The notes below the pieces were generated by a model, which saw only the letters and a program-made list of their open reading frames with translations, did no database searches and was not told where the DNA came from. From NCBI RefSeq assembly GCF_009695545.1, contig NZ_VUNS01000006.1, forward strand, positions 124,001-188,000: 64,000 bases of DNA. Reading direction: 5' to 3'. This document shows positions 33,772-48,113 of this stretch, piece after piece. The stretch is from Victivallis lenta. GTDB taxonomy: Bacteria > Verrucomicrobiota > Lentisphaeria > Victivallales > Victivallaceae. Position numbers and translations under genes: made by a program. Numbering within the stretch: position 1 is the stretch's first letter; every line of letters starts with the position of its first letter.

Positions 33772-34089
33772 ATGGCATGGACTCAGAATGAAATCGAAGC
33801 GTGCATTGAGAGCTGCAGGAAAAAAGCGGCGGTTGACGCGGAGTTCCGCAGGAAACTGCTGGCCGATCCCGCTGCTGCCGTGAAAGAGGTTTCCGGCAAG
33901 GAGATTCCGGCCGGGTTCAAGATTCGAATTCTCGAAAACGATCCGGCTTACGACGCGACGTTCGTGCTGCCTCCGCTGGTTTCGGGAAACATCTCCGACC
34001 GCGAGCTTGACGAAGTCGCCGCCGGCATCTGCGGCATGCAGACCTGTGCGATGGACGCCTGCGGCATAGCCGGGAATGGTTCCAAGTAA
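33772..34089 (+). CDS. NHLP-type RiPP precursor 1, three-Cys core
   Basis: A 105-residue precursor with a nitrile-hydratase-like (NHLP) leader: FRRKLLADPAAAVKE, an IPAGFKI strand, ENDPAYDATFVLPP and the end motif ELDEVAAG. The predicted core after AAG is ICGMQTCAMDACGIAGNGSK, with cysteines spaced C-x4-C-x4-C and a C-terminal Lys. AAGGAGG lies seven bases before ATG 33772. It is the first of three tandem paralogues. The cleavage site is inferred from the C39 peptidase preference for GG/AG and was not seen directly. Confidence 0.9.
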   Translation: MAWTQNEIEACIESCRKKAAVDAEFRRKLLADPAAAVKEVSGKEIPAGFKIRILENDPAYDATFVLPPLVSGNISDRELDEVAAGICGMQTCAMDACGIAGNGSK

Positions 34090-34105: not shown

Positions 34106-34423
34106 ATGCAGTGGACGCAGCAGCAGATCGACGAGTGTATCGAAGCGTGTCGCAGGCGGGCCGCCGTCGATGCGGGGTTCCGCGGGAAGCTGCTGTCCGA
34201 TCCGGCGGCGGCGATCCGGGAACTTTCCGGCCGGGAGATTCCGGCCGGGTTCCGGATCAAGGTGCTGGAAAACGATCCGGCTTACGATGCGACGTTCGTG
34301 CTGCCGCCGCCGGTCGCGGGCGGCGTTTCCGACAATGAGCTGGACGACGTGGCCGGCGGCGCAGTTTGCGGCAGTTATGCCTGCGAACCGCACGCCTGCG
34401 GCACCCACGGCAAACCTAAATGA
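34106..34423 (+). CDS. NHLP-type RiPP precursor 2, three-Cys core
   Basis: A 105-residue paralogue (MQWTQQQIDECIEACRRRA...) with the same leader and the end motif ELDDVAGG. The predicted core is AVCGSYACEPHACGTHGKPK, again C-x4-C-x4-C-G and ending in Lys. GGAGGGG precedes ATG 34106. Its leader DNA is nearly identical to that of precursor 3 over about 95 bases, while the core differs, as expected if leaders are held for enzyme recognition and cores diversify. Confidence 0.9.
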   Translation: MQWTQQQIDECIEACRRRAAVDAGFRGKLLSDPAAAIRELSGREIPAGFRIKVLENDPAYDATFVLPPPVAGGVSDNELDDVAGGAVCGSYACEPHACGTHGKPK

Positions 34424-34441: not shown

Positions 34442-34753
34442 ATGGCCTGGACTCAACAGGAAATCAACGAGTGCATCAATTTGTGCAAACAGAAGGCGGC
34501 GGCGGATGCGGAGTTCCGCAGGAAGCTGCTGTCCGATCCGGCGGCGGCGATCCGGGAGCTTTCCGGCCGGGAGATTCCGGCCGGGTTCCGGATCAAGGTG
34601 CTGGAAAACGATCCGGCCTATGATGCGACGTTCGTGCTGCCTCCGGCGGTCTCCGGCGGCGTGTCGGACAAAGAGCTTGACGGCGTGACCGGCGGAAGTG
34701 CGCTCTGCGCCTTTGAAACCTGTGCCGCAAACGCCTGCGGGGCGGACAAGTGA
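34442..34753 (+). CDS. NHLP-type RiPP precursor 3, three-Cys core
   Basis: A 103-residue paralogue (MAWTQQEINECINLCKQKA...) with end motif ELDGVTGG. The predicted core is SALCAFETCAANACGADK, 18 residues, sharing C-x4-C-x3-A-C-G and the C-terminal Lys. It lies 26 bases before the radical SAM/SPASM gene. All three leaders also carry two Cys near the N terminus (C-x3-C), which are outside the core. Confidence 0.9.
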   Translation: MAWTQQEINECINLCKQKAAADAEFRRKLLSDPAAAIRELSGREIPAGFRIKVLENDPAYDATFVLPPAVSGGVSDKELDGVTGGSALCAFETCAANACGADK

Positions 34754-34779: not shown

Positions 34780-36075
34780 ATGCTCTGGTCGAGATACAAC
34801 CATCTGTTCCGGTCGGAAGGGCGCGGGTGGCTGCTCTACAATGCGTTGTCCAATTCGTTTCTGGCGCTGCCTGAGCCGTTCGGCGAAAAGTTCGCGGAAT
34901 TGCGCGCCGGGGATGAGTTCCGGTGCGATGATCCCGGCGTCACGCTGCAGTTGATCGCCGCCAAGGCGGTGGTCGATTCCGGCGAGGACGACCGGCTGCG
35001 CGACGTATTGCGCATGAAGCGGCGGCTGGCGGATCTGAGCGAACGCATGCTGCTGCTGACGGTTGCGCCGACGCGGAGCTGCAACTTTGCGTGTCCGTAC
35101 TGCTTCGAGGCCAACCGGGCCGGAATCGACATGAGCCGCGAGACGGAGGAGCAGCTGGTCCGGTTTGCGGAGCGGTTTCAGCCGGGGCAGTTGTTCGGCG
35201 TGACCTGGTTCGGCGGCGAGCCGCTGTTGCGTTTCGCGCAGCTCCGGCGGCTCTCCGAACGGTTTCTGGCGCTGGATTTCCGCCGTTACAGCGCTTCGCT
35301 GATCACCAACGGCTACCTGCTGGATGCGGACAAGGCGGCGCTGCTCGACGAACTCGCAATCCGGGAGGTGCAGATCACGCTCGACGGCCCCGAGGAGGTG
35401 CACGACCGGCGGCGCACACTGGTCTCCGGCGGCGGGACATTCCGGCGGATTCTGGAAAATATCGACGCGCTGTTCGCCTCCGGATGGACCGGGCGGCTGC
35501 TGCTGCGGGTCAATGTCGACCGGACCAATGCGGAGGAGTACCACCGCATCTGCGAATTTCTGTACGGGCGCTATTCCGATCACGCGAAGCGGCTGCATGT
35601 CTACCCCGGCATCGTTCATGCGATGGGCAGGGAGAATCCGGATACCGCGTGTCTCTTCGATGTCGACGAGGCGGCGGATTTCCAGATCGAACAGTTCCGC
35701 CGGCACGGAGTGCGGAATCACCCGTTCTACCCCGGCCGCAAGCTTTTCAACTGCATCGCCGCGCGGCGGAACGGCTACGTGGTCGGTCCCGAGGGCGAAC
35801 TTTACAAGTGCTGGAACGATATCGGCATCGCGGAGCGGATCGTCGGCCATATCGACCCGGAGAAGCCGTGGAACAATGCGCTGCTCGCGGAGTGGCTTGA
35901 GGGGCAGTGTGCGCTGAACGATCCGGAGTGCCTCTCCTGCGGGCTGATGCCGGTGTGCGACGGCGGCTGCCCCGCGCTGCGGCGGGAGAAGGCCCCGCAT
36001 TGTTCGCGTTACCGGAACCGGCTGCCTGAATTGCTGGAGGCCCACTATGATGCGACCCGGAGCGGCGACGATTGA
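34780..36075 (+). CDS. Radical SAM/SPASM peptide maturase
   Basis: A 431-residue enzyme with radical SAM motif CNFACPYC (C101, C105, C108) and a C-terminal SPASM domain: NCIAARRNGYVVGPEGELYKC, then CLSCGLMPVCDGGC (CX2CX5CX3C) and a final Cys in APHC. SPASM enzymes make thioether (sactionine, ranthionine) or C-C crosslinks in peptides. The N-terminal YNHLFR...LLYNALSNSFLAL segment recurs in RiPP maturases. Sitting directly after three Cys-rich precursors, it is the best candidate for crosslinking their cysteines; which residues are joined is unknown. Confidence 0.88.
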   Translation: MLWSRYNHLFRSEGRGWLLYNALSNSFLALPEPFGEKFAELRAGDEFRCDDPGVTLQLIAAKAVVDSGEDDRLRDVLRMKRRLADLSERMLLLTVAPTRSCNFACPYCFEANRAGIDMSRETEEQLVRFAERFQPGQLFGVTWFGGEPLLRFAQLRRLSERFLALDFRRYSASLITNGYLLDADKAALLDELAIREVQITLDGPEEVHDRRRTLVSGGGTFRRILENIDALFASGWTGRLLLRVNVDRTNAEEYHRICEFLYGRYSDHAKRLHVYPGIVHAMGRENPDTACLFDVDEAADFQIEQFRRHGVRNHPFYPGRKLFNCIAARRNGYVVGPEGELYKCWNDIGIAERIVGHIDPEKPWNNALLAEWLEGQCALNDPECLSCGLMPVCDGGCPALRREKAPHCSRYRNRLPELLEAHYDATRSGDD

Positions 36076-37099
36076 GATCGAGCCGGTTCACCTGTTCAAC
36101 CTGAAGGATTACCGGCTGTTGTTCACGGCGCGCCAGCAGGCGTTTTTCGGGGATTCGGCGCCGGGCGGCGGGCATCTGCTGTTCGGCGCGCGCTGCTGCG
36201 GCGAACCGGCGGGCGTGGTGTGGGGCGGGCCGGACCGGAATCCGGGCGGGTTGTTCTTATTCCATTTGTATGTGCCGGAGCGCTTCCGGCGGCGCGGCAT
36301 CGGGCGGCAGCTGCTGGAAACGGTGTGCGCCGCCGCATCGGAGGCGGGATTCCGCGAGGTGTATGTGCGGTTTCGCCGCCGGAACCGTGCGGAAAACGCG
36401 TTGTGGAATTTTCTGGAAAGGGTCCCCGGGCCGTGTGTCCGGCTGGAGACGGCGTTCCGGCTGGAGCTGCCTGCCGGAGCGGAACGCGAACTGCGGGTGC
36501 GTTCCCGTTCCGGGCGGTGGCGGCTGCTGCCGCTGGAAGCGGCGCTGGATGCGCTGGGGGAGACGGAGCGCGCGGCGATGGCGGAGCGGGAGCGGCGTTT
36601 CCGTGAAGGGCTGGAGCGGCTTCCGCTGACGGATCCGGCGGCGTGGCGGAGATTTCTGCGTGACGGGGTTTTTCTCGCTCCCTTCGGGGAGCATTCGGAG
36701 TTGCCGCAGTTCGGGCGGGCCTGCGTGGAACGCGACTCCGGGCGGCTGGCCGGATGGCTTTCCGGCGAGGTGGCCGGCGGCGGACTGCATGTGCGGCGCG
36801 CTTTTGTGGAGCCGGAGTTTCGCGGCGGCGAGGTGATGGCGCTGCTGGCGGAGGAAGTCTACCAATGGATGCGGCAAACCGGCGGCCCGGTCCGCTGGGA
36901 GGTGAAGTATTGGAACCGGGTGTTTCAGCGGGGCTGCCTGCGGTACGCCGGGCGTTTGAAGATCAGTGAATCGGTCGAAGACTGCGTGAAAATAATACCG
37001 GTAACAGATGGAGGCGGTGAAAATGAACAAAATCGAAGAGAATCTGGCGAAGTGGAAGGAGATCGAGGCGAAGGTGATTGCACGGGCGCTGACCGATGA
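36047..37099 (+). CDS. Double GNAT-domain protein, candidate peptide acyltransferase
   Basis: A 350-residue protein with two GNAT-like halves. The N-terminal one is clear: LFLFHLYVPERFRRRGIGRQLLETVCAAA holds the acyl-CoA pyrophosphate loop (RRRGIG). The second (LHVRRAFVEPEFRGGEVMALLAEEVYQW) is weaker. GNAT-like maturases acylate Lys or Orn in NHLP-leader lipopeptides (selidamides), so this may acylate the Lys present in all four cores here. It overlaps the SPASM gene by 29 bases and the fourth precursor by 77 bases; its last 25 or so residues are therefore read over that gene. Confidence 0.75.
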   Translation: MMRPGAATIEIEPVHLFNLKDYRLLFTARQQAFFGDSAPGGGHLLFGARCCGEPAGVVWGGPDRNPGGLFLFHLYVPERFRRRGIGRQLLETVCAAASEAGFREVYVRFRRRNRAENALWNFLERVPGPCVRLETAFRLELPAGAERELRVRSRSGRWRLLPLEAALDALGETERAAMAERERRFREGLERLPLTDPAAWRRFLRDGVFLAPFGEHSELPQFGRACVERDSGRLAGWLSGEVAGGGLHVRRAFVEPEFRGGEVMALLAEEVYQWMRQTGGPVRWEVKYWNRVFQRGCLRYAGRLKISESVEDCVKIIPVTDGGGENEQNRRESGEVEGDRGEGDCTGADR

Positions 37100-37364
37100 G
37101 GCGTTCCGCACCCGCCTGGAGCAGGACCCCCGCGAAACGATCGAAACCGAGTTTCAGTGCAAAGTCAGCGGCGACGTGACTTTCAGAGTGCGTGAGGAGG
37201 AGAATCCCGGCGAAATGACCATTCTGCTGCCGAAGCTCCCGAAAAAGGAGATGGGCGAGCAGTTGACCGACCGCGAAATCGACGACATCGTGGCGGCGGG
37301 GAACATCGGCATCGCGGTCGGCATCGTGACCACCGACATCGTGCTGGTCAAGGGGATCGCCTGA
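37023..37364 (+). CDS. NHLP/proteusin precursor 4, cysteine-free hydrophobic core
   Basis: A 113-residue precursor with a divergent NHLP leader (AFRTRLEQDPRETIETEF, VTFRVREEENPGEMTILLPKLPKKE, REIDDIVAAG). The predicted core NIGIAVGIVTTDIVLVKGIA has no Cys; it is rich in beta-branched and small residues like polytheonamide-type proteusins and has one Lys. GGAGGCGG precedes ATG 37023. It lies directly before the epimerase gene, its likely enzyme. The leader Cys in FQCK is outside the core. Confidence 0.85.
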   Translation: MNKIEENLAKWKEIEAKVIARALTDEAFRTRLEQDPRETIETEFQCKVSGDVTFRVREEENPGEMTILLPKLPKKEMGEQLTDREIDDIVAAGNIGIAVGIVTTDIVLVKGIA

Positions 37365-37383
37365 CCGTCGAAGGAGGGCCGGA

Positions 37384-38751
37384 TTGAATTTTGCCGATTA
37401 CAAGCGGTTTCTGGAATGGTATATGGGGGACGACGAATTCCGGGAACGGTTCGACTGCGCCCCGGCGGCCGCGCTGCGCGAGGCGGCCCTGAGTCCGGAA
37501 ACCTCCGTGGAGTTCCTGCAGGCGATCGCGGCGGGCTGCCGCAGTTACAATTTCCGTCCGGTTATGGAGCGTTTTCCCGCCGAGCTGGCGGAACTGCGGG
37601 GCTTCGCGGCGGCGCTGGAGGAGGCCAACCCGTTCACGGTGCGCTGCCGGAACGCCTGCGGCGGCAATGCGCGCTTCGAGGAGTGGCGGGAGCGCCGGCG
37701 CCGGGCGAACCGGGCGGTGCTTCAGCCGCTCTATTTCGACCGCTCTTTCAATATCGCGGTCGCGTATGAATTGGGAGTGGGGTGCTCCGGACAGTGCGGC
37801 TTCTGCTGCTTCGACGCGCCGCCGCTGCAGGAGAATTTCCGGTACACGCCGGAGAACCGGGAGCTGTGGCGCGGTGTGCTGGCGCTCTTTTGCGAACTGC
37901 TCGGCGACCGGGCGGGGGCGGCGGCGCTCTACTGGGCGACCGATCCGTTCGACAACCCGGATCTGGAGAAGTTCTACCGGGATTTTTACGAATTGAACCA
38001 AGTCTGGCCGCCGATCACCACGCGCTGGCCGCTGCGCGACCCGGAGCGGACCCGCCGTTTTGCCGGAGAGGGGCGCGAACACGGCCAGCCCGGCTGCCGC
38101 TTTTCGATGACGGAGCGCGGGGAGTTGCGGCGCTTTTTCCGGGCGTTTTCGGCGGAGGAGGCGATGGACTGGAGCCTCGTGCTGAACAACCCGGAATCGC
38201 TGAACCGCTATTCGGCCAGCGGCCGGGCGCGGCAGGCGGAGCCGGAGATGCCGGGAAGGTGTCAGGAGGACACCACCAGCTGCTGTCTCTCCGGCTTTCT
38301 GGTGAATTTGTGTCGCCGGAGCATCCGGCTGGTGTCGCCTTGCGTGCCGGATGAGGCGAATCCGTACGGCTTTCACCTGTGGAGCGAGGCGTCGTTCCGC
38401 GACGCGGCGGAGCTGGAACGGGTTCTCGGCGGAATGCAGGAACGTTTTTTCCCGGAAGGGCCGGAGGCGCTGCCGTTCCTGCGGCTGCCGCCCGTCTGGA
38501 ATCTGGAGATTTCCGGGGGGCGCGCTGAACTCACTTCCCGCTATCTGGTGCGGCGCTTCGCGGTGTCGCCGCAGGAGGCTGCGCTGCTGGAACGCCTGAA
38601 AACCGGTATCTCCCGGCGGGAGTTCGACCGGGAGTTCGGCGGGGAGCTGGCGTTTCTCGGGAAAACGCATGGATTGTTGGAAACGCTGTGGAAATCCGGC
38701 ATGCTGTCGGAGGAGGAAGAGAATTGGACCGGTTCGATATCACGTTGGTGA
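37384..38751 (+). CDS. PoyD-like radical SAM peptide epimerase
   Basis: A 455-residue radical SAM protein with CSGQCGFC (C134, C138, C141). The following region (FDAPPLQENFRYTPENRELW and ALYWATDPFDNPDLEKFY) matches PoyD/OspD-type RiPP epimerases, which turn L- into D-residues. The N terminus (FLEWYMGDDEFRERFDCAPAAALREA) itself resembles an NHLP/Nif11-like leader segment. A Cys-rich stretch (RCQEDTTSCC) lies further on, where epimerases keep an H-donor Cys. The start is TTG 37384 behind GGAGGG. It follows precursor 4 by 19 bases. Confidence 0.88.
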   Translation: MNFADYKRFLEWYMGDDEFRERFDCAPAAALREAALSPETSVEFLQAIAAGCRSYNFRPVMERFPAELAELRGFAAALEEANPFTVRCRNACGGNARFEEWRERRRRANRAVLQPLYFDRSFNIAVAYELGVGCSGQCGFCCFDAPPLQENFRYTPENRELWRGVLALFCELLGDRAGAAALYWATDPFDNPDLEKFYRDFYELNQVWPPITTRWPLRDPERTRRFAGEGREHGQPGCRFSMTERGELRRFFRAFSAEEAMDWSLVLNNPESLNRYSASGRARQAEPEMPGRCQEDTTSCCLSGFLVNLCRRSIRLVSPCVPDEANPYGFHLWSEASFRDAAELERVLGGMQERFFPEGPEALPFLRLPPVWNLEISGGRAELTSRYLVRRFAVSPQEAALLERLKTGISRREFDREFGGELAFLGKTHGLLETLWKSGMLSEEEENWTGSISRW

Positions 38752-40655
38752 ATATGCCTTTCGCAATGCCGCTGATCGCGCCGCTGGGCGTCGGCGTGCT
38801 GTGCGGGGCGCTGCGCAGGGCCGGCTGCCGCGTCCGCTGCCGGTTTGCGAATGTCGACCTGGCGGAGCGTGTGCCGGAGGAGCTTTATGACTACCCCGCC
38901 TCGAACGGCTTGAATGTGGATGTGATGCTGGCGGACTGGCTGTTCGCGGAGCCGTTGTTCGGGCCGGACCCGGAGCGCGACCGCCGTTTCCTTGAAATCC
39001 TGCAGGATGAGTGCGGCCACGACCGGGTGGTCTGGAACGGCCGCTACCGCTCGTCCGGCGACCTGCTGCGCGACGTTCCGCTGCTGAAGCGCGAGGCGGC
39101 CCGCTGCGTGGAAAAGACCGCCGCCGCGCTGGCGGACGGCTCCACCCGGATCGTCGGCTGTTCGAGCACCTTCTTCCAGCGGCTCGCTTCGCTGGCGCTG
39201 CTGAAGCGGGTCAGGGAGCTGAATCCGGAAGTGGTGACCTTTCTGGGCGGTTCCGACTGCGAAGGAGAGGCGGGGATGGAGGCGGTGCGCAGTTTCCCGT
39301 TCGTCGATTATGTGTTCTGCGGCGAGGGCGACCTGACCGTGCCGGAGATGACCCGCCGGGTGGTGCGGAACGAGCGTTCGGCGGAGCTTCCCTTCGGCGT
39401 GTTCGACCGGGCCAAGGCGGAGCGGGGCGTGCCGGAGGTCGCCTGCGTGCCGGGCGATGCGATCGCCGAACCCGATTCGAGCGACTACTACGAACGGATC
39501 AAAGGGAGCCGCCTGCACCGGGCCGCCGTGCGGAAGTATTTTCTGGAAAGTTCGCGCGGCTGCTGGAAAGGGCAGAAGCAGCATTGCAGTTTCTGCGGCC
39601 TCAACGGGGAGCGGGTCGCCTACCGGCGCAAAGATCCCGGACAGGTGCTGGCCGAACTGCGCCGCGGCTACCGGGAGTTCGGCTGCCGCATCTTCCTGAC
39701 CGCCGATACGGTGCTTGACCTGAATACGATGCGCGACACGCTGCGCATCTTCGGGGAGGAGGCTCCCGACGCTGTCATCAGTTATGAGACGGTTTCGACG
39801 CTGACCGAGGAGCAGGTGCGGTTTCTGGCCGACTGCGGCGTGATGGTGATCCAGAGCGGGATTGAAACGCTGCACCCGAAGCATATCCGGCTGCTGAACA
39901 AGGGCAACGGCACGTTGTCGAGCATCGCGCTGCTGAAATTCGCGCTGGAGAATCGTATCCAGGTGCTGTGGAACATGCTCAGCGGCATTCCCGGCGACTC
40001 GCCGGAGGAGTATCGCTGGGTGATGGAGCTGATTCCGAAGCTTGCCCACCTGCCGGGTCCGAACTGGGGCGCGATCCGCTTCGACAAGTTCAGCCTGTAC
40101 TGGAAGGAGCCGGAGCGGTTCGGCCTGAAGCTGGCTCCGATGAAAGGCTACCGCGTGCTGATGCCGGAAGATTCGGTCCGCCTAGAACGGTGGGCGCTCT
40201 TCTATGACAATCTGAATCCTGCCGCCCGCACCGGCCAGCAGGAGATCGCCGAGGTGCGCAAGGCGGTCGATGCGTGGTACCGGGATTCCCACCCCGCGAA
40301 GCATCATCTGGAATTCACCGCTCCCGACCGGCTCCGCGACACCCGCCCCGGCGCACTGGCGGCGGAGTACCGGCTTTCCCCCGATGAACAGGCGGTGCTC
40401 CGGGCGGCGCGCTCCCCGGCCGACCGGGCCGCAGTGGAGGCGTTGCCCGGAAATCCGGTGCGGGCGATTGAAAATATGAAGGAACACGGCTATCTTATCG
40501 AAGTGGAAAACCGGCTGCTGGCGCTGCCGCTGATTCCTCCGGGCGCGGAGCGGATCGAAAAAAGCAGAATGCGCTACCGCAGCCTTTTCCGCGGGCAGAC
40601 GCTCCCCGCCGCGACGGTGTGGGAGGAGGGCGCTTTCATACAGGTCGGCCGCTGA
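38724..40655 (+). CDS. Cobalamin-binding radical SAM RiPP maturase (PoyB/C-like)
   Basis: A 643-residue protein with an N-terminal B12-binding-like region (about residues 1-200, LVNMPFAMPLIAPLGVGVL... LGGSDCEGEAG) and a radical SAM motif of the RiPP type, CWKGQKQHCSFCGLNG (C280, C288, C291; CX7CX2C rather than CX3CX2C). Relatives C-methylate unactivated carbons, as in polytheonamide. The start is inferred as TTG 38724 with GGAGGA six bases upstream, overlapping the epimerase end by 28 bases; a more upstream ATG at 38688 is possible. Likely substrate: precursor 4. Confidence 0.88.
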   Translation: MDRFDITLVNMPFAMPLIAPLGVGVLCGALRRAGCRVRCRFANVDLAERVPEELYDYPASNGLNVDVMLADWLFAEPLFGPDPERDRRFLEILQDECGHDRVVWNGRYRSSGDLLRDVPLLKREAARCVEKTAAALADGSTRIVGCSSTFFQRLASLALLKRVRELNPEVVTFLGGSDCEGEAGMEAVRSFPFVDYVFCGEGDLTVPEMTRRVVRNERSAELPFGVFDRAKAERGVPEVACVPGDAIAEPDSSDYYERIKGSRLHRAAVRKYFLESSRGCWKGQKQHCSFCGLNGERVAYRRKDPGQVLAELRRGYREFGCRIFLTADTVLDLNTMRDTLRIFGEEAPDAVISYETVSTLTEEQVRFLADCGVMVIQSGIETLHPKHIRLLNKGNGTLSSIALLKFALENRIQVLWNMLSGIPGDSPEEYRWVMELIPKLAHLPGPNWGAIRFDKFSLYWKEPERFGLKLAPMKGYRVLMPEDSVRLERWALFYDNLNPAARTGQQEIAEVRKAVDAWYRDSHPAKHHLEFTAPDRLRDTRPGALAAEYRLSPDEQAVLRAARSPADRAAVEALPGNPVRAIENMKEHGYLIEVENRLLALPLIPPGAERIEKSRMRYRSLFRGQTLPAATVWEEGAFIQVGR

Positions 40656-40667
40656 ACAGGGTGATGG

Positions 40668-41993
40668 ATGAACAGGAATCTTTTCCGCAAAAATGCGATG
40701 CTCAAGGCCGCTTCGCCGTTTGAGCTGAACCGGCTGGTTTCCATTTTCAACGGGCGCGAGGCGCTGGCGCTGCTGGCGCTGGGCGTGACGGTGATCGCGG
40801 CGCTGGCATGGGGGATTTTCGGGGTGATCTACGAACGGGTCAGCGGGAACGGAATCGTGATGCTGCAGAGCCAGTTCGACACGATCCAGGCCCCCGCCGG
40901 AGGAGTGCTGATCTCCTTCGACCTCGAAACCGGCGACTTTGTCAGGCGCGGTCAGATGGTCGGGCGGCTTTTCTCGTTTTCAGATCTCGAAAACCTGCGC
41001 GAAAGCTATCAGAAGCTGAAAATGCTTCAGGGCAATCTGGAGGAGGTCCGCCGGTACACCGACCGGCTGAAAAAGGGCAAGCAGAGCCATTTTCAGAAAA
41101 GTTCCGAAGTGCTGGATGAGACGATCGGCCGCCTGAATGAGGAGCTGGAGTGGCTGAGCCGCTACGTGGACAAGGGCAGGGACCTCTCCGAGCGCGGCAC
41201 GATCTCGCAGCAGCAGTGGCACGAGGAGCAGGAAAAATACCATGCCAAGCTCAAGAACCGCGCCGACTACCTGCTCAAGAAACTCGAGGAGGAAAATTCG
41301 CTCTCCGAAGCTGATTTCACGCTCGCCAAGGAGATCATGTCCGTGGAGGTCGAGGTAAACTCCGCGCTTTTCGAGGTCGCGCTGCTGCGCAACAAGCTCG
41401 AATACAACACCCGGATCGTCAGCACCCATTCCGGCACCGTGACCAGCGTGAACTACACTCCGGGGTCGATCGTGGCCGCCGAAGCCAACCTCGCCAGCCT
41501 GATCGACCTCGACGACCAGACCGACGAGACGTGGGAGCTGTATGCATATTTCTCCGTTGCCGACAGCAAGAAGATCCGGCCCGGGATGAGCGCGATCGTG
41601 ACCCCGTCGTCGGTGAAGGCCGAGCGCGACGGTTCCATCCGCGGCACGGTCACCCATGTCGGGACCTATATTCTGCCGGTCGAATCGATCGACCGCACCT
41701 TCCGCAATGCCGCATTCGCGCAATATCTGCTCAGGCAGTGTGCGAATATGCCGGTCGAAGTGCGCATTCTGCTGTCGCGGGACCGGAACTCCCCGAACGG
41801 TTTCCGCTGGACTTCCGGCTCCGGTCCGGATATCGAGGTCAGCGCCGGGACTCTCTGCGCGGCCAGCGTGGTCGTGGACAGGGAGCCGCCGCTGGAACTG
41901 GTCTTTTCCGGATTGCGCAGATTCATGTTCGGCCAGGGCGTAATGGAGGAGTTCCAGTTGAAAAACGCCCGGACCGGCTCCGGAGGCGAGTGA
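40668..41993 (+). CDS. NHLM-type HlyD secretion adaptor
   Basis: A 441-residue membrane-fusion protein. One N-terminal membrane helix (LALLALGVTVIAALAWGIFGVIY, about 30-58), a biotinyl-lipoyl-like half motif (IQAPAGGVLISFDLETGDFVRRGQMVG), a long coiled coil (about 105-220) and the second half (TRIVSTHSGTVTSVNYTPGSIV) are visible. It matches adaptors of nitrile-hydratase-leader microcin (NHLM) exporters and should link the two ABC proteins downstream to the cell envelope. Confidence 0.88.
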   Translation: MNRNLFRKNAMLKAASPFELNRLVSIFNGREALALLALGVTVIAALAWGIFGVIYERVSGNGIVMLQSQFDTIQAPAGGVLISFDLETGDFVRRGQMVGRLFSFSDLENLRESYQKLKMLQGNLEEVRRYTDRLKKGKQSHFQKSSEVLDETIGRLNEELEWLSRYVDKGRDLSERGTISQQQWHEEQEKYHAKLKNRADYLLKKLEEENSLSEADFTLAKEIMSVEVEVNSALFEVALLRNKLEYNTRIVSTHSGTVTSVNYTPGSIVAAEANLASLIDLDDQTDETWELYAYFSVADSKKIRPGMSAIVTPSSVKAERDGSIRGTVTHVGTYILPVESIDRTFRNAAFAQYLLRQCANMPVEVRILLSRDRNSPNGFRWTSGSGPDIEVSAGTLCAASVVVDREPPLELVFSGLRRFMFGQGVMEEFQLKNARTGSGGE

Positions 41994-41996
41994 CCC

Positions 41997-44159
41997 ATGA
42001 CGCTGCGGAAAAGACGGGTCGAATGCCCGATGGTGCTCCAGATGGAGGCGGCTGAATGCGGCGCCGCCGCGCTGGCGATGGTGATGTCGTATTACGGCGC
42101 GGTCGTGCCGCTGGAGCGGCTGCGCGACGAGTGCGGCGTCTCCCGCGACGGCAGCAAGGCTTCGAGCCTGCTCAAAGTGGCGCGCAACTACCATTTCAGG
42201 GCGCAGGGATACCGCGAAGAGGAGCTTGACGGGCTGGAACGCCATGCGCTGCCGCTGATCCTCTTCTGGAACTTCAATCATTTCGTGGTCTATACCGGGC
42301 GCTGTGGGCGGAAGTTCTGCATCAACGATCCCGCCCTCGGACCGCGGCTGGTGGATGCGAAAGAGATGGACGAGTCGTTCAGCGGCGTGCTGCTGGAGAT
42401 CGTCCCCGGCGAAGGTTTCGGGCGGTTCGGGCGCGAACCGTCGCTCGCCGGCTCGCTGTGGCGGCGGCTGGAAGGGTGCCGCGGCACCTTTCTTCTGCTG
42501 CTGCTGACCGGGCTGCTGCTGGTGCCGGGCAATCTGCTCACTCCGAACCTGTCGAAGATTTTCATCGACAACTTCATGATGGACCGTTTCTACAACTGGG
42601 GGACGCCGCTGATCACGCTGGCGCTGCTGACGCTGCTGGTCACGCTCTTTCTGACCTGGATTCAGTGCAACGGCCTGGTGCGGCTGAATCTGAAGGTGGC
42701 CCTGACGGGATCGGCTTCGTTTCTGTTCCGGGTGCTGCACCTGCCGGTGAGCTTTTTTGCCGGCCGCCAGAGCGGCGAACTGGCGACCCGCGTGCAGCTG
42801 AACGACCGGGTCGCGGCATTTCTCTCGGAACAGCTCGCCGCGAATCTTCTCAGTTTGATCACGCTCTTTTTCTATGCGGTCGTGATGTTCTGCTACGACG
42901 CGGTGCTCGGCACGCTGGCGGCGGTGATGGGCGCGGCGGTGCTGCTTCTGCTCCAACGGAAGCTCAAATCACGCAAGCTGCTCGGGCAGAGCATCCAGCT
43001 GGATACCGGCATGCTCTACGGCACCAGCGCCACCGGCGTGATGCTGATCGAGACGCTGAAGGCGTCGGGCGGTGAAAACGACTTCTTTTCCGGCTGGAGC
43101 GGATTTCAGGCCCGGAGCCTGCTCGGGCGGCAGAAACTGGAGGCCTCCACCGTGCTGCTCGGCACCTTCCCGAACAGCGTGCAGAAGGTCACTGTGGCGC
43201 TGGTCACCGGTCTGGGGGCGCTGCGGATTCTGGCCGGCAGCATGACCGGCGGCGCGTATCTGGTCTTTCAGCTGATTCTCGGTTACTTCTTCGTTCCGCT
43301 CGAACAGCTGGTCAACCTCGGCAATTCGCTGCAGGAGATCGATGCCGGGCTGAAGCGGCTCGACGATGTGATGACCTGCCGCGAGGACCCGTATTCGTTC
43401 GAAGAGGGGCCGCGCCATGCCGGCGAGCCGGTGCCGAAACTGGAGGGACGGCTGGAGCTGCGCGACGTTGCGTTCGGCTACAATCCGACCGCCGAGCCGG
43501 TGCTGCGCAACTTCAGCCTGACGGTGAAGCCGGGGGAACGGGTTGCGATCGTCGGTCCGTCCGGTTCGGGCAAATCCACGGTGGCGAAACTGATCGCGGG
43601 GCTGTATCGGCCGTGGCAGGGAGAGATCCGGTTCGACGGTGAACCGCGCGAATATTATTCGCACACGGAGCTTTTCAATTCCTTTGCGATGGTCGACCAG
43701 GATATCTTCCTGTTTCGCGGCACCATCTGCGACAATCTGACCATGTTCGACCGTTCCATCCCGATCGCGGATGTCGAGCGGGCCGCGCGCGACGCATGCA
43801 TCCACGACCAGATCGCGGCGCGCAGTTTCGGCTATTTTTCGGAAGTTGGCGAGGGCGGCGGCAATTTCAGCGGCGGCGAACGCCAGCGGCTCGAAATCGC
43901 ACGGGCGCTGGTGTCGAATCCCTCCCTGCTGCTGCTGGACGAGGCGACCAGCGCGCTTGATCCGGAGACGGAGTTGCGGATCGACCGCAATTTACGCCGC
44001 CGCGGCTGCAGCTGCGTGATTATCGCGCACCGCCTCAGCACGATCCGGGATGCCGACCGGATCGTGGTGCTCGAACGCGGAGAGGTCGTGGAGACCGGAA
44101 CCCATGAAGAACTGCTGGCGAAGGGCGGCTTCTACGCCCGGCTGCTTGCGAACATATGA
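41997..44159 (+). CDS. NHLM ABC exporter with N-terminal C39 peptidase
   Basis: A 720-residue peptidase-containing ABC transporter. The C39 domain has QMEAAECGAAALAMV (catalytic Cys 21), LFWNFNHFVVY (His) and INDPA (Asp). Six membrane helices follow, then the ATPase with Walker A GPSGSGKST, signature FSGGERQR and Walker B LLLLDEAT. It should cleave leaders after GG/AG and export the cores. It starts three bases after the HlyD gene. Confidence 0.92.
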   Translation: MTLRKRRVECPMVLQMEAAECGAAALAMVMSYYGAVVPLERLRDECGVSRDGSKASSLLKVARNYHFRAQGYREEELDGLERHALPLILFWNFNHFVVYTGRCGRKFCINDPALGPRLVDAKEMDESFSGVLLEIVPGEGFGRFGREPSLAGSLWRRLEGCRGTFLLLLLTGLLLVPGNLLTPNLSKIFIDNFMMDRFYNWGTPLITLALLTLLVTLFLTWIQCNGLVRLNLKVALTGSASFLFRVLHLPVSFFAGRQSGELATRVQLNDRVAAFLSEQLAANLLSLITLFFYAVVMFCYDAVLGTLAAVMGAAVLLLLQRKLKSRKLLGQSIQLDTGMLYGTSATGVMLIETLKASGGENDFFSGWSGFQARSLLGRQKLEASTVLLGTFPNSVQKVTVALVTGLGALRILAGSMTGGAYLVFQLILGYFFVPLEQLVNLGNSLQEIDAGLKRLDDVMTCREDPYSFEEGPRHAGEPVPKLEGRLELRDVAFGYNPTAEPVLRNFSLTVKPGERVAIVGPSGSGKSTVAKLIAGLYRPWQGEIRFDGEPREYYSHTELFNSFAMVDQDIFLFRGTICDNLTMFDRSIPIADVERAARDACIHDQIAARSFGYFSEVGEGGGNFSGGERQRLEIARALVSNPSLLLLDEATSALDPETELRIDRNLRRRGCSCVIIAHRLSTIRDADRIVVLERGEVVETGTHEELLAKGGFYARLLANI

Positions 44160-44166
44160 AGAAACC

Positions 44167-46887
44167 ATGAGAACTGACCGCATCGGACAACTGCTGAACT
44201 CCATCGCGACCGGCGAATACGCCTTTTCCGGCCGTGCCATCCCGCTGGATGATCCGGAGAGCTGCTGGATTGTGCTCTCCGGCGCGCTCGATCTCTTTTC
44301 GGCGCGCATGATGCCTGACGGCTCCTGCGGCGCGCGCCTGCCGGCCGGGACGGGCGACTGTCCGCTTCACTGCGTGATTCCGGGCGTCGCTGCCGTTGCG
44401 GACGGGGAAGGGCGGCGGATTCTGCTGGCGATGCCGCTGCCCGGCACGCGCTGCGTGAAGGTGCCGTCCGCGGCGCTGGAAGCGCTCTGTCGCCGGGAGC
44501 CGGAGCTGGCGGAATTTCGCCGCGCCGGCCTGGCGCTCTGGCTGGAGAGTTTCGGCGGGGAGACCGCCGGGGAGGCGGGAATCGAGGAGCGGGCGGAGGC
44601 GTTCCGGCGCTCCCTGCCGGAGCGCTGCGTTGAGGCCGCCCGCCGGTTGCGCGGGCAGGAGCGCGAGCGGCTCCGCGCGAAGTTCCGCGAGAGGGACGAA
44701 AGCCGCCGGAACGCGCTGGGCCGCATCTGTGACGTGCTGCGTCCGAAAGCGCGGTTCCGGCTGCCGCCTTCGACCGGCGACGCGCTGTTTGATGCGTGTG
44801 CCGCCGCCGGGAGCGTGATGGGGGTGGAGCTGCACTGTCCCGGCCGGCACTTCTTTTCCGGCGGCGACTCGCCGGAGGAACGGATTCGCCGGATCTGCGA
44901 CTACAATCAGGTCCGCTGCCGCAAAGTGGAGTTGGCGCAGGGGTGGGAGCAGCAGGATTTCACCGCTTTTGTCGCCTTCCGCCGGGAGTCCGGCGAACCG
45001 GTGGCACTGCTCGGGCGCAGCGGTGACGAGGCCCGTTTGTTCGATCCCGCCGAAGAACGGCTGCACCGGGTTTCCCGGAAGGAGGCCGCGACACTGGCGG
45101 AGGACGGCTGGTGCTTCTATGCACCGTTCCCGCCGGGGCGGATCACGCCGGGGCGGCTGCTGGCGATGGCGTTCCGGGGCGCGCGCGGCGACCTGTCGGC
45201 GCTGCTGTGGCTGATGCTGCTCGGAGCGTTGCTGAGCATGGCGGTGCCGATCATCAACGGCGTGATTTTCGGAACCGTGATTCCGACGGCGGACCGGGTG
45301 CTGCTGATGCAGCTCTTCGGGATTTCGCTGCTCTTCGCGGTCACCCAGGGGGTATTCGAATATGTGGAGTCGATCGCGATCCTGCGCATTCACGTTCGGG
45401 CTGAGTACACGCTTCAGGCGGCGGTCTGGGACCGGCTGCTGAATCTGCCGGCCCGTTTTTTTCGCGCGTTCAGCACCGGTGATCTCGCCACGCGCAGCCT
45501 CGGGATCATGCAGATCGGCGAAATCCTGTCGGTTTCCACGGTCAAAGCGGCGGTCGCGGGCTGTTTCTGCTTTCCGTCGCTGATTCTGATGTTCTACTAC
45601 GATTTGCTGCTCGGGGTGATTTCGCTGCTGATTCTGCTGGCGGTGCTCGGCATCTTCGCGGTACTGGCGGTGATGATGGTGCGCCGCCACACCCGTATCC
45701 TGGCCGAAGAGGGGGAGCTGAACGGGGAGCTGGTGCAGTTCTTCAACGGCATCTCCAAAATCCGCACGGCCGGAGCGGAGAATGCCGCTTTCGCGCGCTG
45801 GGCCGGCCGGTTCAGCCTCAAGAAACGGATCTACCGCTCTTTCGCAAACTGCCGCAGCTTCGCGACCGTCGTGAATGCAGTGATTCCGGTCGTAACCATC
45901 GGGACGGTGATTGCGATCGTGACCTGGCAGTATTTCCACGCGAAAGACGCCGAGTCGCTGATGAGTTCCGCCGATTTCGTCAGCTTCGTGTCTGCGCTGG
46001 GGATCGTCAGCGCGGCGGTCGGGCAGATGGTCATGGCGCTGATTTCGGCGGTCGGCGCGATTCCGGTCTACCGGCGGCTGCGCCCGATTCTGGAGGCGGA
46101 GTCGGAGAATGACGCGGCCAAGCCTCCGCCGGGAAAACTTTCCGGCGCGATCGACGTCAGAAATGTGTCGTTCCGGTACGGTCCCGATCAGCGGCAGATT
46201 CTTTCCGGCCTTTCGATGCAGGTGAAGCCAGGGGAGTTCGTCGCGGTAGTCGGGGAGTCCGGTTCCGGCAAGTCCACGCTGCTGCGGCTGCTGCTCGGTT
46301 TTGAGATGCCCGGCAGCGGCAGCATCACCTATGACGGGCAGGACGTCAGCCATGTGAATCTGCAGGCGCTGCGCGCCCGGATCGGTGTGGTGCTGCAGGA
46401 CAGCCGGCTGCTGCCCGACACCGTGCTGCGCAACATCATCGGCCACTCCGGAAAACTGACCATAGACGATGCGTGGGAGGCGGCGCGCCTGGCGGGCTGC
46501 GAACGGGATATCCGCGAGATGCCGATGGGGATGCATACGATGCTTTCCGCCGGGGGCGGTTCCGTTTCCGGCGGTCAGCGCCAGCGCATTCTGATCGCGC
46601 GGGCGCTGGCGAAGAAACCGGCGGTGCTGCTTTTCGACGAGGCGACCAGCGCGCTGGACAACGAAACCCAGGCAGCGGTCAGCGCCGGAATCGAACAGCT
46701 CAAGGTTTCGCGGCTGCTGATCGCCCACCGCCTCAGCACCGTGATGAATGCGGACCGGATCTATGTGCTGCACGAGGGGCGCATGGCCGAGTGCGGCACC
46801 TATCGGCAATTGATGGAACAAGACGGCGTTTTCGCGCGGCTCGCCCGGCGGCAGCTAGCGGAAGCCGGGGAGAAATCCGAGAAATGA
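44167..46887 (+). CDS. NHLM second ABC protein without peptidase
   Basis: A 906-residue ABC exporter protein. The first ~330 residues form a non-peptidase domain with NHLM-family size. Six membrane helices (about 375-660) and an ATPase follow, with Walker A GESGSGKST, signature VSGGQRQR and Walker B VLLFDEAT. NHLM loci usually carry this protein beside the C39-type one, presumably as a heterodimer partner. The start at 44167 lies seven bases after the previous stop. Confidence 0.88.
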   Translation: MRTDRIGQLLNSIATGEYAFSGRAIPLDDPESCWIVLSGALDLFSARMMPDGSCGARLPAGTGDCPLHCVIPGVAAVADGEGRRILLAMPLPGTRCVKVPSAALEALCRREPELAEFRRAGLALWLESFGGETAGEAGIEERAEAFRRSLPERCVEAARRLRGQERERLRAKFRERDESRRNALGRICDVLRPKARFRLPPSTGDALFDACAAAGSVMGVELHCPGRHFFSGGDSPEERIRRICDYNQVRCRKVELAQGWEQQDFTAFVAFRRESGEPVALLGRSGDEARLFDPAEERLHRVSRKEAATLAEDGWCFYAPFPPGRITPGRLLAMAFRGARGDLSALLWLMLLGALLSMAVPIINGVIFGTVIPTADRVLLMQLFGISLLFAVTQGVFEYVESIAILRIHVRAEYTLQAAVWDRLLNLPARFFRAFSTGDLATRSLGIMQIGEILSVSTVKAAVAGCFCFPSLILMFYYDLLLGVISLLILLAVLGIFAVLAVMMVRRHTRILAEEGELNGELVQFFNGISKIRTAGAENAAFARWAGRFSLKKRIYRSFANCRSFATVVNAVIPVVTIGTVIAIVTWQYFHAKDAESLMSSADFVSFVSALGIVSAAVGQMVMALISAVGAIPVYRRLRPILEAESENDAAKPPPGKLSGAIDVRNVSFRYGPDQRQILSGLSMQVKPGEFVAVVGESGSGKSTLLRLLLGFEMPGSGSITYDGQDVSHVNLQALRARIGVVLQDSRLLPDTVLRNIIGHSGKLTIDDAWEAARLAGCERDIREMPMGMHTMLSAGGGSVSGGQRQRILIARALAKKPAVLLFDEATSALDNETQAAVSAGIEQLKVSRLLIAHRLSTVMNADRIYVLHEGRMAECGTYRQLMEQDGVFARLARRQLAEAGEKSEK

Positions 46888-48113
46888 AGAAAAAATACGT
46901 ATGGCTTTTCCTGCTGCTTCTGGCGGCGGCGATCGCGGTCGGTTCCCGGACCGAAGTCGCTGGTTTCCTGCGTCGCAATTTCGCGGCGACCTTCAGCGAA
47001 GTTTTGCCGTCCGAACCGACGAAATTGCGGGCGCGCTATTTGAAAAAGCACCCGCAGGAGCTGAATATTGCGGTTTTCGGGCCGTGGGACTATTATGCGC
47101 GGCAGGGCTTCATTCTTGATAAGGCGGTTCAGCTGGCGATCGACGAGGTGAACGCGGCCGGCGGAATTCTCGGACGCCGGGTCAATCCGGTCTGGGTGGA
47201 CAACGGGAATTACAGCGCGATTGCGCAGGAGCAGGCCGAAAAGCTGGCCGCTGATCCGTCTATTTTCGCAGTGCTCGGGCCGGTCACGTCGGGGCGGGTG
47301 CTGCAGTTCAACTCCCTGTTCGGGGATGCCGGGCTGCCGGAGGTGGCGCCGCTGGCCCAGAGCGAGCGGATCAACCGCGACAGAACCAATGCGCTGCTGT
47401 TCATGCCGATCGCTTCCGACCTGGCCGAAAGCAGGGCGCTGGCAGCCTGGGCGGAGAGGGAGAAACGGAACAATTTTCTGATTCTGAACGACGACAGCCG
47501 TTTCCCGATGAGTTACGGCAGCTGTGTGGAGCAGTCATTTTATGAGAAAGATCTGCTGGTGTACGGCCGGGTGCTTTTCGACCAGAGCAGCAAAAAGAAT
47601 TACATCCGCGATCAGGTGCTGCAATATCTCGACTACTTTCCGGTGCAGAACATCATCTACCTGAGCAAGACCGGAGACGCTTCCGACTATGCGGACCTTG
47701 CGGACCGGGTTTTCACGTGGCTGCCGGAGGGAACGCTCTACTTCAATGAATTCACGACGCTTGATCGGCTGCTGAAAATCCGGCTTGACCGCAACCGGGT
47801 TTTCGTTCCCGCCGCGATTCCGTTGAATGAGGCGAACCGCGCCGAACTGCGCAAGTTCCTGAAGATGGAGAATTACGAGCGCGATTTCCTGTCGCTGATT
47901 GCGTACCGTTCGGTTCACATTTTCGCGGATGCGATTCGGCAGGCCGGGACCCTCGAGCCCGGTAGAATCGCCGAAACCATGCGTACCGGAGTGATGCAGA
48001 CCCCGCTGGGCGAGTTTCGTTTTTCCGCCGATGGTTTCGAGGCCGACCCGCCGCTGGAGATTCTTTCGCTGGAGGAGCTGGAAAAGCGCTGGCGGGCAAT
48101 CGCCGCCGAATGA
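46884..48113 (+). CDS. LivJ-type periplasmic ligand-binding protein
   Basis: A 409-residue protein anchored or secreted by an N-terminal hydrophobic helix (KKKYVWLFLLLLAAAIAVG). The body is a type-I periplasmic binding fold of the branched-chain amino acid/amide class (AVQLAIDEVNAAGGILGRRV, FAVLGPVTSGRVL, NFLILNDDSRFP). It overlaps the second ABC gene (ATGA), so it belongs to the operon. No importer permease is present. It may bind the product, a cue or an immunity ligand; all of these are guesses. Confidence 0.8.
   Translation: MKKKYVWLFLLLLAAAIAVGSRTEVAGFLRRNFAATFSEVLPSEPTKLRARYLKKHPQELNIAVFGPWDYYARQGFILDKAVQLAIDEVNAAGGILGRRVNPVWVDNGNYSAIAQEQAEKLAADPSIFAVLGPVTSGRVLQFNSLFGDAGLPEVAPLAQSERINRDRTNALLFMPIASDLAESRALAAWAEREKRNNFLILNDDSRFPMSYGSCVEQSFYEKDLLVYGRVLFDQSSKKNYIRDQVLQYLDYFPVQNIIYLSKTGDASDYADLADRVFTWLPEGTLYFNEFTTLDRLLKIRLDRNRVFVPAAIPLNEANRAELRKFLKMENYERDFLSLIAYRSVHIFADAIRQAGTLEPGRIAETMRTGVMQTPLGEFRFSADGFEADPPLEILSLEELEKRWRAIAAE

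Follow-up and report, generated by a model that had tools for sequence, protein, structure and literature searches.

The PoyD-type radical S-adenosylmethionine (SAM) epimerases characterised so far, which act on ribosomally synthesized and post-translationally modified peptides (RiPPs), come mainly from clusters of sponge-symbiont, marine or cyanobacterial origin. Here we describe an operon of Victivallis lenta, a gut bacterium, in which a short precursor peptide (precursor 4), such an epimerase and a B12-type radical SAM C-methyltransferase form a tight block. The operon lies in a stretch of 64,000 nucleotides (the window; contig NZ_VUNS01000006.1, positions 124,001 to 188,000) of a 5.55 Mb genome; all coordinates are window positions, and all features are on the + strand. 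Among the named relatives that we found, Victivallis vadensis DSM 14823 is the nearest, with 93% identity over the epimerase. We consider it probable, from homology, that precursor 4 is a proteusin substrate that is epimerized by the PoyD-type enzyme, C-methylated by the second enzyme and exported.

The closest described systems share different parts of this arrangement. Polytheonamide (poy) and aeronamide (aer) combine, as here, a nitrile-hydratase-like (NHLP) leader, a PoyD-type epimerase, a B12 C-methyltransferase with a Cx7Cx2C motif (reported for PoyC; PMC11285071) and leader removal by a cysteine protease, but their core is of about 49 residues, contains NX5N and undergoes N-methylation and dehydration. 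Pythonamide (ereAIMBD, Ca. Eudoremicrobium; PMC9259500) resembles our locus in its NHLP precursor, the PoyD-type EreD and the B12 radical SAM C-methyltransferase EreB, both acting on Val and Ala. In its NHLP core the residues flipped by EreD interleave with those C-methylated by EreB: D-residues are at V10, A12, A14, V16 and V18, and C-methyl groups at V9, V13 and V15 among others (PMC9259500). It differs in its 46-residue core and in EreI and the FkbM-type EreM, and its five named genes include no GNAT acyltransferase. Nostatin A (nst, Nostoc; PMC11583998) has an NHLP precursor, the PoyD-like NstF, the class B cobalamin C-methyltransferase NstA and a 30-residue core; it differs from our locus in having azoles and dehydro residues, for which a cyclodehydratase and a LanM-like enzyme are responsible, and one D-residue, a substituted Pro. 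Landornamide A (osp) has a short NHLP core with D-Ile4 and D-Val13 installed by the PoyD-type OspD (PMC10028609), together with lanthionines and ornithines, and C-methylation is not among its six listed modification steps. Since sets of an NHLP precursor, an epimerase and a C-methyltransferase are already known, as are short cores with PoyD-type enzymes (landornamide, pythonamide, nostatin A), this operon belongs to the known proteusin family and is not a system of a new kind. What is unusual is that it pairs a short proteusin with a second RiPP type.

Precursor 4 starts at ATG 37023, downstream of a Shine-Dalgarno-like GGAGG, and ends in ...DDIVAAG followed by the core NIGIAVGIVTTDIVLVKGIA and a stop codon at 37362-37364. 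Its leader (residues 1-93, 37023-37301) exceeds the NHLP model TIGR03793, with 53.4 bits over residues 10-92 against a cut-off of 50.9; the genome has four NHLP leaders, every one of them within this operon. The core (37302-37361) is 20 residues long, or 21 including Gly93. Unmodified, the 20-mer would have a mass M of 1965.187 ([M+2H]2+ 983.601) and the 21-mer one of 2022.209 (1012.112). Ile, Val, Thr and Ala make up 13 of the 20 residues, whereas their share in the neighbouring genes is 23% (binomial P 9e-5), so the richness in these residues that the initial annotation had noted is real. The NX5N motif of polytheonamide-type channel proteusins was not seen in the 20-21-residue core, which holds only one Asn, and no N-methylation or dehydration enzymes were seen among the operon genes examined. 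The leader would be cut either after the Gly of ...DDIVAAG or one residue earlier, between VAA and GN, with Ala-Gly or Ala-Ala in place of Gly-Gly. NHLP leaders are cleaved after the family motif ELSDEQLDAVAGG (PMC2887384). The spacing from LxxxxI to Gly in precursor 4 is one residue longer than in this motif and in the sister precursors, and therefore the core has 20 or 21 residues; the earlier cut may leave a leader of residues 1-92 and a 21-residue core beginning GNIGIAVG. A double-Gly-type site before the core and an NHLP exporter with a C39 peptidase are thus both present, as in proteusins, with the bond uncertain by one residue. Neither an amphipathic alpha-helix nor a beta alternation was found in the core in excess of shuffled sequences. 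A plasmid of Nostoc sp. UHCC 0926 (L015:6657-9044) encodes, directly 5' of a PoyD-type epimerase, NHLP-like precursors that had escaped annotation and whose cores, ATIGIYGPLQIVKS and AVIGVIGPLQYVKS, are very short; the likeness of the precursor 4 core to these is no better than that of shuffles (P 0.12-0.67).

The epimerase gene (37384-38751; 455 amino acids from a TTG start) begins 19 bases after the stop of precursor 4, which ends at 37364, as had been noted at the outset. A profile search matched the protein to the rSAM_PoyD model TIGR04517 over the full length (2-445 of 446; E 4.7e-91, 306 bits). We aligned it with other PoyD-type proteins, nine in all, from Victivallales, another member of the phylum, Nostoc, Kovacikia, Mesorhizobium and Sinorhizobium. 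Only four Cys are invariant in this alignment: C134, C138 and C141, which form the CxxxCxxC motif, and C301 (codon 38284-38286), the sole one outside the cluster motif. PoyD homologues have a single strictly conserved Cys, Cys372, which is the proposed hydrogen-atom donor (PMC8326336). We take C301 as its counterpart and thus as the candidate donor. At its N-terminus (residues 2-40, 37387-37503) the epimerase resembles TIGR04509, an NHLP-related peptide model, with E 2.7e-4; 9 of 9 homologues have a stretch like it, which is possibly a leader mimic or a leader-binding domain. Sequence searches of solved structures returned no match for the epimerase or the methyltransferase, and the viral contigs searched held no relatives of the epimerase or of the GNAT described below.

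The methyltransferase scores 655 bits against TIGR03975, the RiPP radical SAM C-methyltransferase model, where the cut-off is 281.85. The likely start is TTG 38724, with a Shine-Dalgarno-like GGAGGA upstream, giving 643 amino acids (38724-40655); GTG 38688 is the alternative. With the epimerase stop at 38751, the two genes overlap by 28 or 64 bases, respectively, in agreement with the overlap described before. The sequence CWKGQKQHCSFC is the Cx7Cx2C motif, and family motifs are also present. Cobalamin synthesis is plausible because the genome has cobQ.

Precursor 4 and the epimerase are complete in V. vadensis and in two further genomes, G022 and G393, the carriers falling in two families; the methyltransferase of G393 is split across contigs. 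In a fifth genome, G356, the operon is fragmented over two contigs, and the stretch with precursor 4 is not among them. Precursor 4 occurs in 4 of 198 genomes of the class, all of which carry the block. The core is nearly fixed, with identities of 20/20, 18/20 and 18/20 in the three other genomes, and Asp12 and Lys17 are invariant in all four. Between our core and that of G393 there are 12 synonymous differences on 16.8 sites and 2 non-synonymous on 43.2 (omega about 0.02), and the comparison with G022 gives 4 on 16.7 and 2 on 43.3. The core is under purifying selection. Identity to the relatives is 90-97% for the precursor (leader 90-97%), 71-93% for the epimerase and 74-89% for the GNAT. A precursor better conserved than its enzymes would be unusual for an arms-race toxin and, on the basis of four genomes, may point to a fixed role. 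The V. vadensis NHLP genes adjoining the exporter were listed in 2010 (PMC2887384), and our literature search found no paper on an epimerized peptide from Victivallis.

In the operon as a whole, three Cys-core precursors come first, then a radical SAM enzyme of the SPASM type and the GNAT, then the precursor 4 block and finally a leader-cleaving NHLP exporter; the operon is found again in V. vadensis and in a second family. The exporter genes encode an HlyD-type secretion protein (40668-41993; TIGR03794, 529 bits), an NHLM ABC1 exporter with a C39 leader peptidase (41997-44159; TIGR03796, 1017 bits; PF03412, E 1e-31) and an NHLM ABC2 permease/ATPase (44167-46887, with a predicted start; TIGR03797, 922 bits); all three profile cut-offs are exceeded. 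Immediately 3' of them is a periplasmic-binding-protein-like gene (46884-48110; PF13458), with a similar gene in G356 (L011:1490-2719); a role in peptide sensing or immunity is possible. At the other end, the three sister NHLP precursors (33772-34089, 34106-34423 and 34442-34753; TIGR03793, 50-54 bits) have C-x4-C-x4-C cores with a terminal Lys and are followed by the SPASM maturase (34780-36075), and they have the exporter in common with precursor 4. The maturase shows similarity to the "Cys-every-fifth" enzyme CefB, to Clo7bot and to TIGR04463, every match being below cut-off. It probably acts on the Cys precursors and not on precursor 4, and together they probably make a second RiPP of thioether type. 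Of the 137 genomes of the order, the same five have the epimerase, the GNAT and the SPASM enzyme; the SPASM query gave one remote match elsewhere.

Gene order, protein families, motifs, conservation and purifying selection are all read from the DNA itself, and the annotation of a proteusin-like product with D-residues and possible C-methylation holds up as the best reading of the NHLP leader, the epimerase, the Cx7Cx2C methyltransferase, the exporter and the conservation of the core across two families. By analogy with characterised systems, D-residues in the core are very likely and C-methylation is likely. The PoyD-type enzyme would invert some of the core Ile and Val, and possibly Ala or Thr, by abstracting the Calpha hydrogen and receiving a hydrogen from Cys301; the TIGR03975 enzyme would next methylate unactivated side-chain carbons of residues that are still L; and the C39-domain exporter, judging from characterised relatives, would cleave off the leader, with VAAG or VAA as its last residues, and secrete a hydrophobic peptide of 20-21 residues containing D-residues. 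The enzymes could in principle serve the three Cys-core precursors instead, precursor 4 being no substrate, since one operon and one exporter hold all four. We find this highly improbable: precursor 4 stands directly 5' of the epimerase in 4 of the 4 genomes that have it; its leader is of another type, with 31% identity to the sister precursor compared directly and the Cys leaders forming a separate group; and the Cys cores match the Cys-every-fifth relatives of the SPASM enzyme. Because the leaders are distinct and the Cys cores fit the SPASM enzyme, the epimerase and methyltransferase most likely act on precursor 4.

Several points weigh against the reading of an epimerized and C-methylated proteusin, which is a prediction from homology. 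The 306 bits of the epimerase fall below the curated TIGR04517 cut-off of 325, for which reason we call it a divergent, PoyD-type homologue and do not file it under that family. It is 26-30% identical to the aligned members from outside Victivallales, and with such identity and score the epimerization sites are not predictable. The equivalence of C301 and Cys372 relies on the description of PoyD in the text of PMC8326336. AlphaFold models of the GNAT and epimerase, for which alignments of three sequences served as input, were not of usable quality (predicted local distance difference test, pLDDT, 46 and 42), and the B12-binding match of the methyltransferase to PF02310 is weak (27.4 bits, E 3e-6; gathering score 32.1). 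A PoyD-type gene is also no guarantee of many D-residues: for nostatin A and carnazolamide, the PoyD-like enzyme inverts just one Pro (PMC11583998, PMC10676384), and richness in Ile, Val, Thr and Ala is uninformative on the number flipped. The epimerase might thus flip one or two residues, with minor C-methylation and a mostly linear L-peptide as the product, as OspD flips two residues and NstF and CcaD one (PMC10028609, PMC11583998, PMC10676384), and as the divergence of the enzyme would allow. Set against this, the core is dense in Val and Ile, and EreD flips Val at several sites (PMC9259500), and we regard so sparse a modification as rather unlikely. The number and place of the modifications are in either case speculative. 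The short core had been thought to rule out a polytheonamide-like membrane-spanning helix, and a monomeric channel of that kind is indeed unlikely; the shortness itself is not unusual, as landornamide and nostatin A show. Gramicidin A crosses membranes as a dimer of 15-mers. A short core therefore need not exclude a channel, and two 20-residue helices of alternating D- and L-residues could meet head to head. The core is hydrophobic (mean 0.58), which would suit such a pore, but it carries the charged Asp12 and Lys17, both invariant, and its hydrophobicity alternation at 180 degrees is nothing unusual (P 0.39). We give this pore very little credence.

A further modification is suggested by the GNAT gene (36047-37099), which the initial annotation had left out and which sits upstream of precursor 4, between the two precursor groups. 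The N-terminal half holds a GNAT domain (PF00583, E 2.3e-16) and alone has a P-loop-like RRRGIG. The C-terminal half could be a second, degenerate GNAT-like domain, which is seen only in the low-confidence model with pLDDT 46; the protein is a candidate tandem acyltransferase. Its end varies among genomes, the G022 homologue terminating about at the start of precursor 4. For the selidamide GNAT NpuN a tandem architecture is described in which the N-terminal domain bears the P-loop, and its relatives occur in NHLP and Nif11 clusters (PMC13060382). The resemblance in layout makes acylation of Lys17 a testable addition. Lys17 may receive an acyl or a fatty acyl chain from the GNAT, besides the D-residues and C-methyl groups of the peptide, and so perhaps may the Lys that closes each of the Cys cores examined. 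This would extend the proteusin reading and is compatible with it. Lys17 is the invariant residue noted above, and Mesorhizobium huakuii has consecutive Nif11-PoyD-GNAT-TIGR03975 genes. Yet the similarity of our GNAT to the rhizobial one is weak (E 7e-4), the proven selidamide GNATs were compared by description only, the tandem fold depends on a low-confidence model, and GNATs may instead serve self-immunity or N-terminal acetylation. Sequence searches of solved structures with the GNAT gave weak GNAT matches only, and among the 137 genomes of the order we found none with half of the operon, from which one could have told which precursor type the GNAT serves. The described selidamides (phaeornamide, kamptornamide, nostolysamides) are also, unlike our predicted product, lanthipeptides, and fatty acylation in Victivallis is only putative. 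Acylation of Lys17 is thus speculative, with a chance that we place below even.

Related combinations occur elsewhere. Rhizobial clusters of M. huakuii 7653R (L017:5056-9935, on a Mesorhizobium plasmid) and Sinorhizobium meliloti (L018:3242-8969) have plasmid-borne Nif11 precursors beside an adjoining PoyD-type epimerase and TIGR03975 enzyme, the former with a GNAT in addition. They differ from our operon in the Nif11 leader and in longer tails rich in Ala, Val and Thr, and no transporter is annotated in the stretch read. This is an independent pairing of the two enzymes outside the proteusins. Within the same phylum, G348 (L010:1796-19001) has a polytheonamide-like cluster with the NHLP core TITVVGVGIAAVTVNTGANVNQTANGNINVNANVNVQVNMSVQTTTTSTN, a PoyD homologue of 547 bits, three TIGR03975-like enzymes (one identified by its score and two from alignments), a LanM-type dehydratase, a HemK-like methyltransferase, and HlyD and C39-type exporter genes.

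One could imagine a single operon whose one exporter delivers RiPPs of two different types: a set crosslinked through Cys, and a short proteusin that combines D-residues, C-methyl groups and an acylated Lys. The latter, with a precursor better conserved than its enzymes, would then serve the Victivallales as a signal or effector that stays fixed, not as a toxin that diversifies; we consider this unlikely. V. vadensis DSM 14823, a close relative, is a deposited strain, which would allow an anaerobic producer to be investigated along with its product. With a core of 20-21 residues, each D-residue and methyl group could be placed by tandem mass spectrometry, and the core would be a compact test case for how an epimerase chooses its sites and how C-methylation is interleaved. 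Its near-fixed sequence raises the question of what function of a proteusin prevents diversification.

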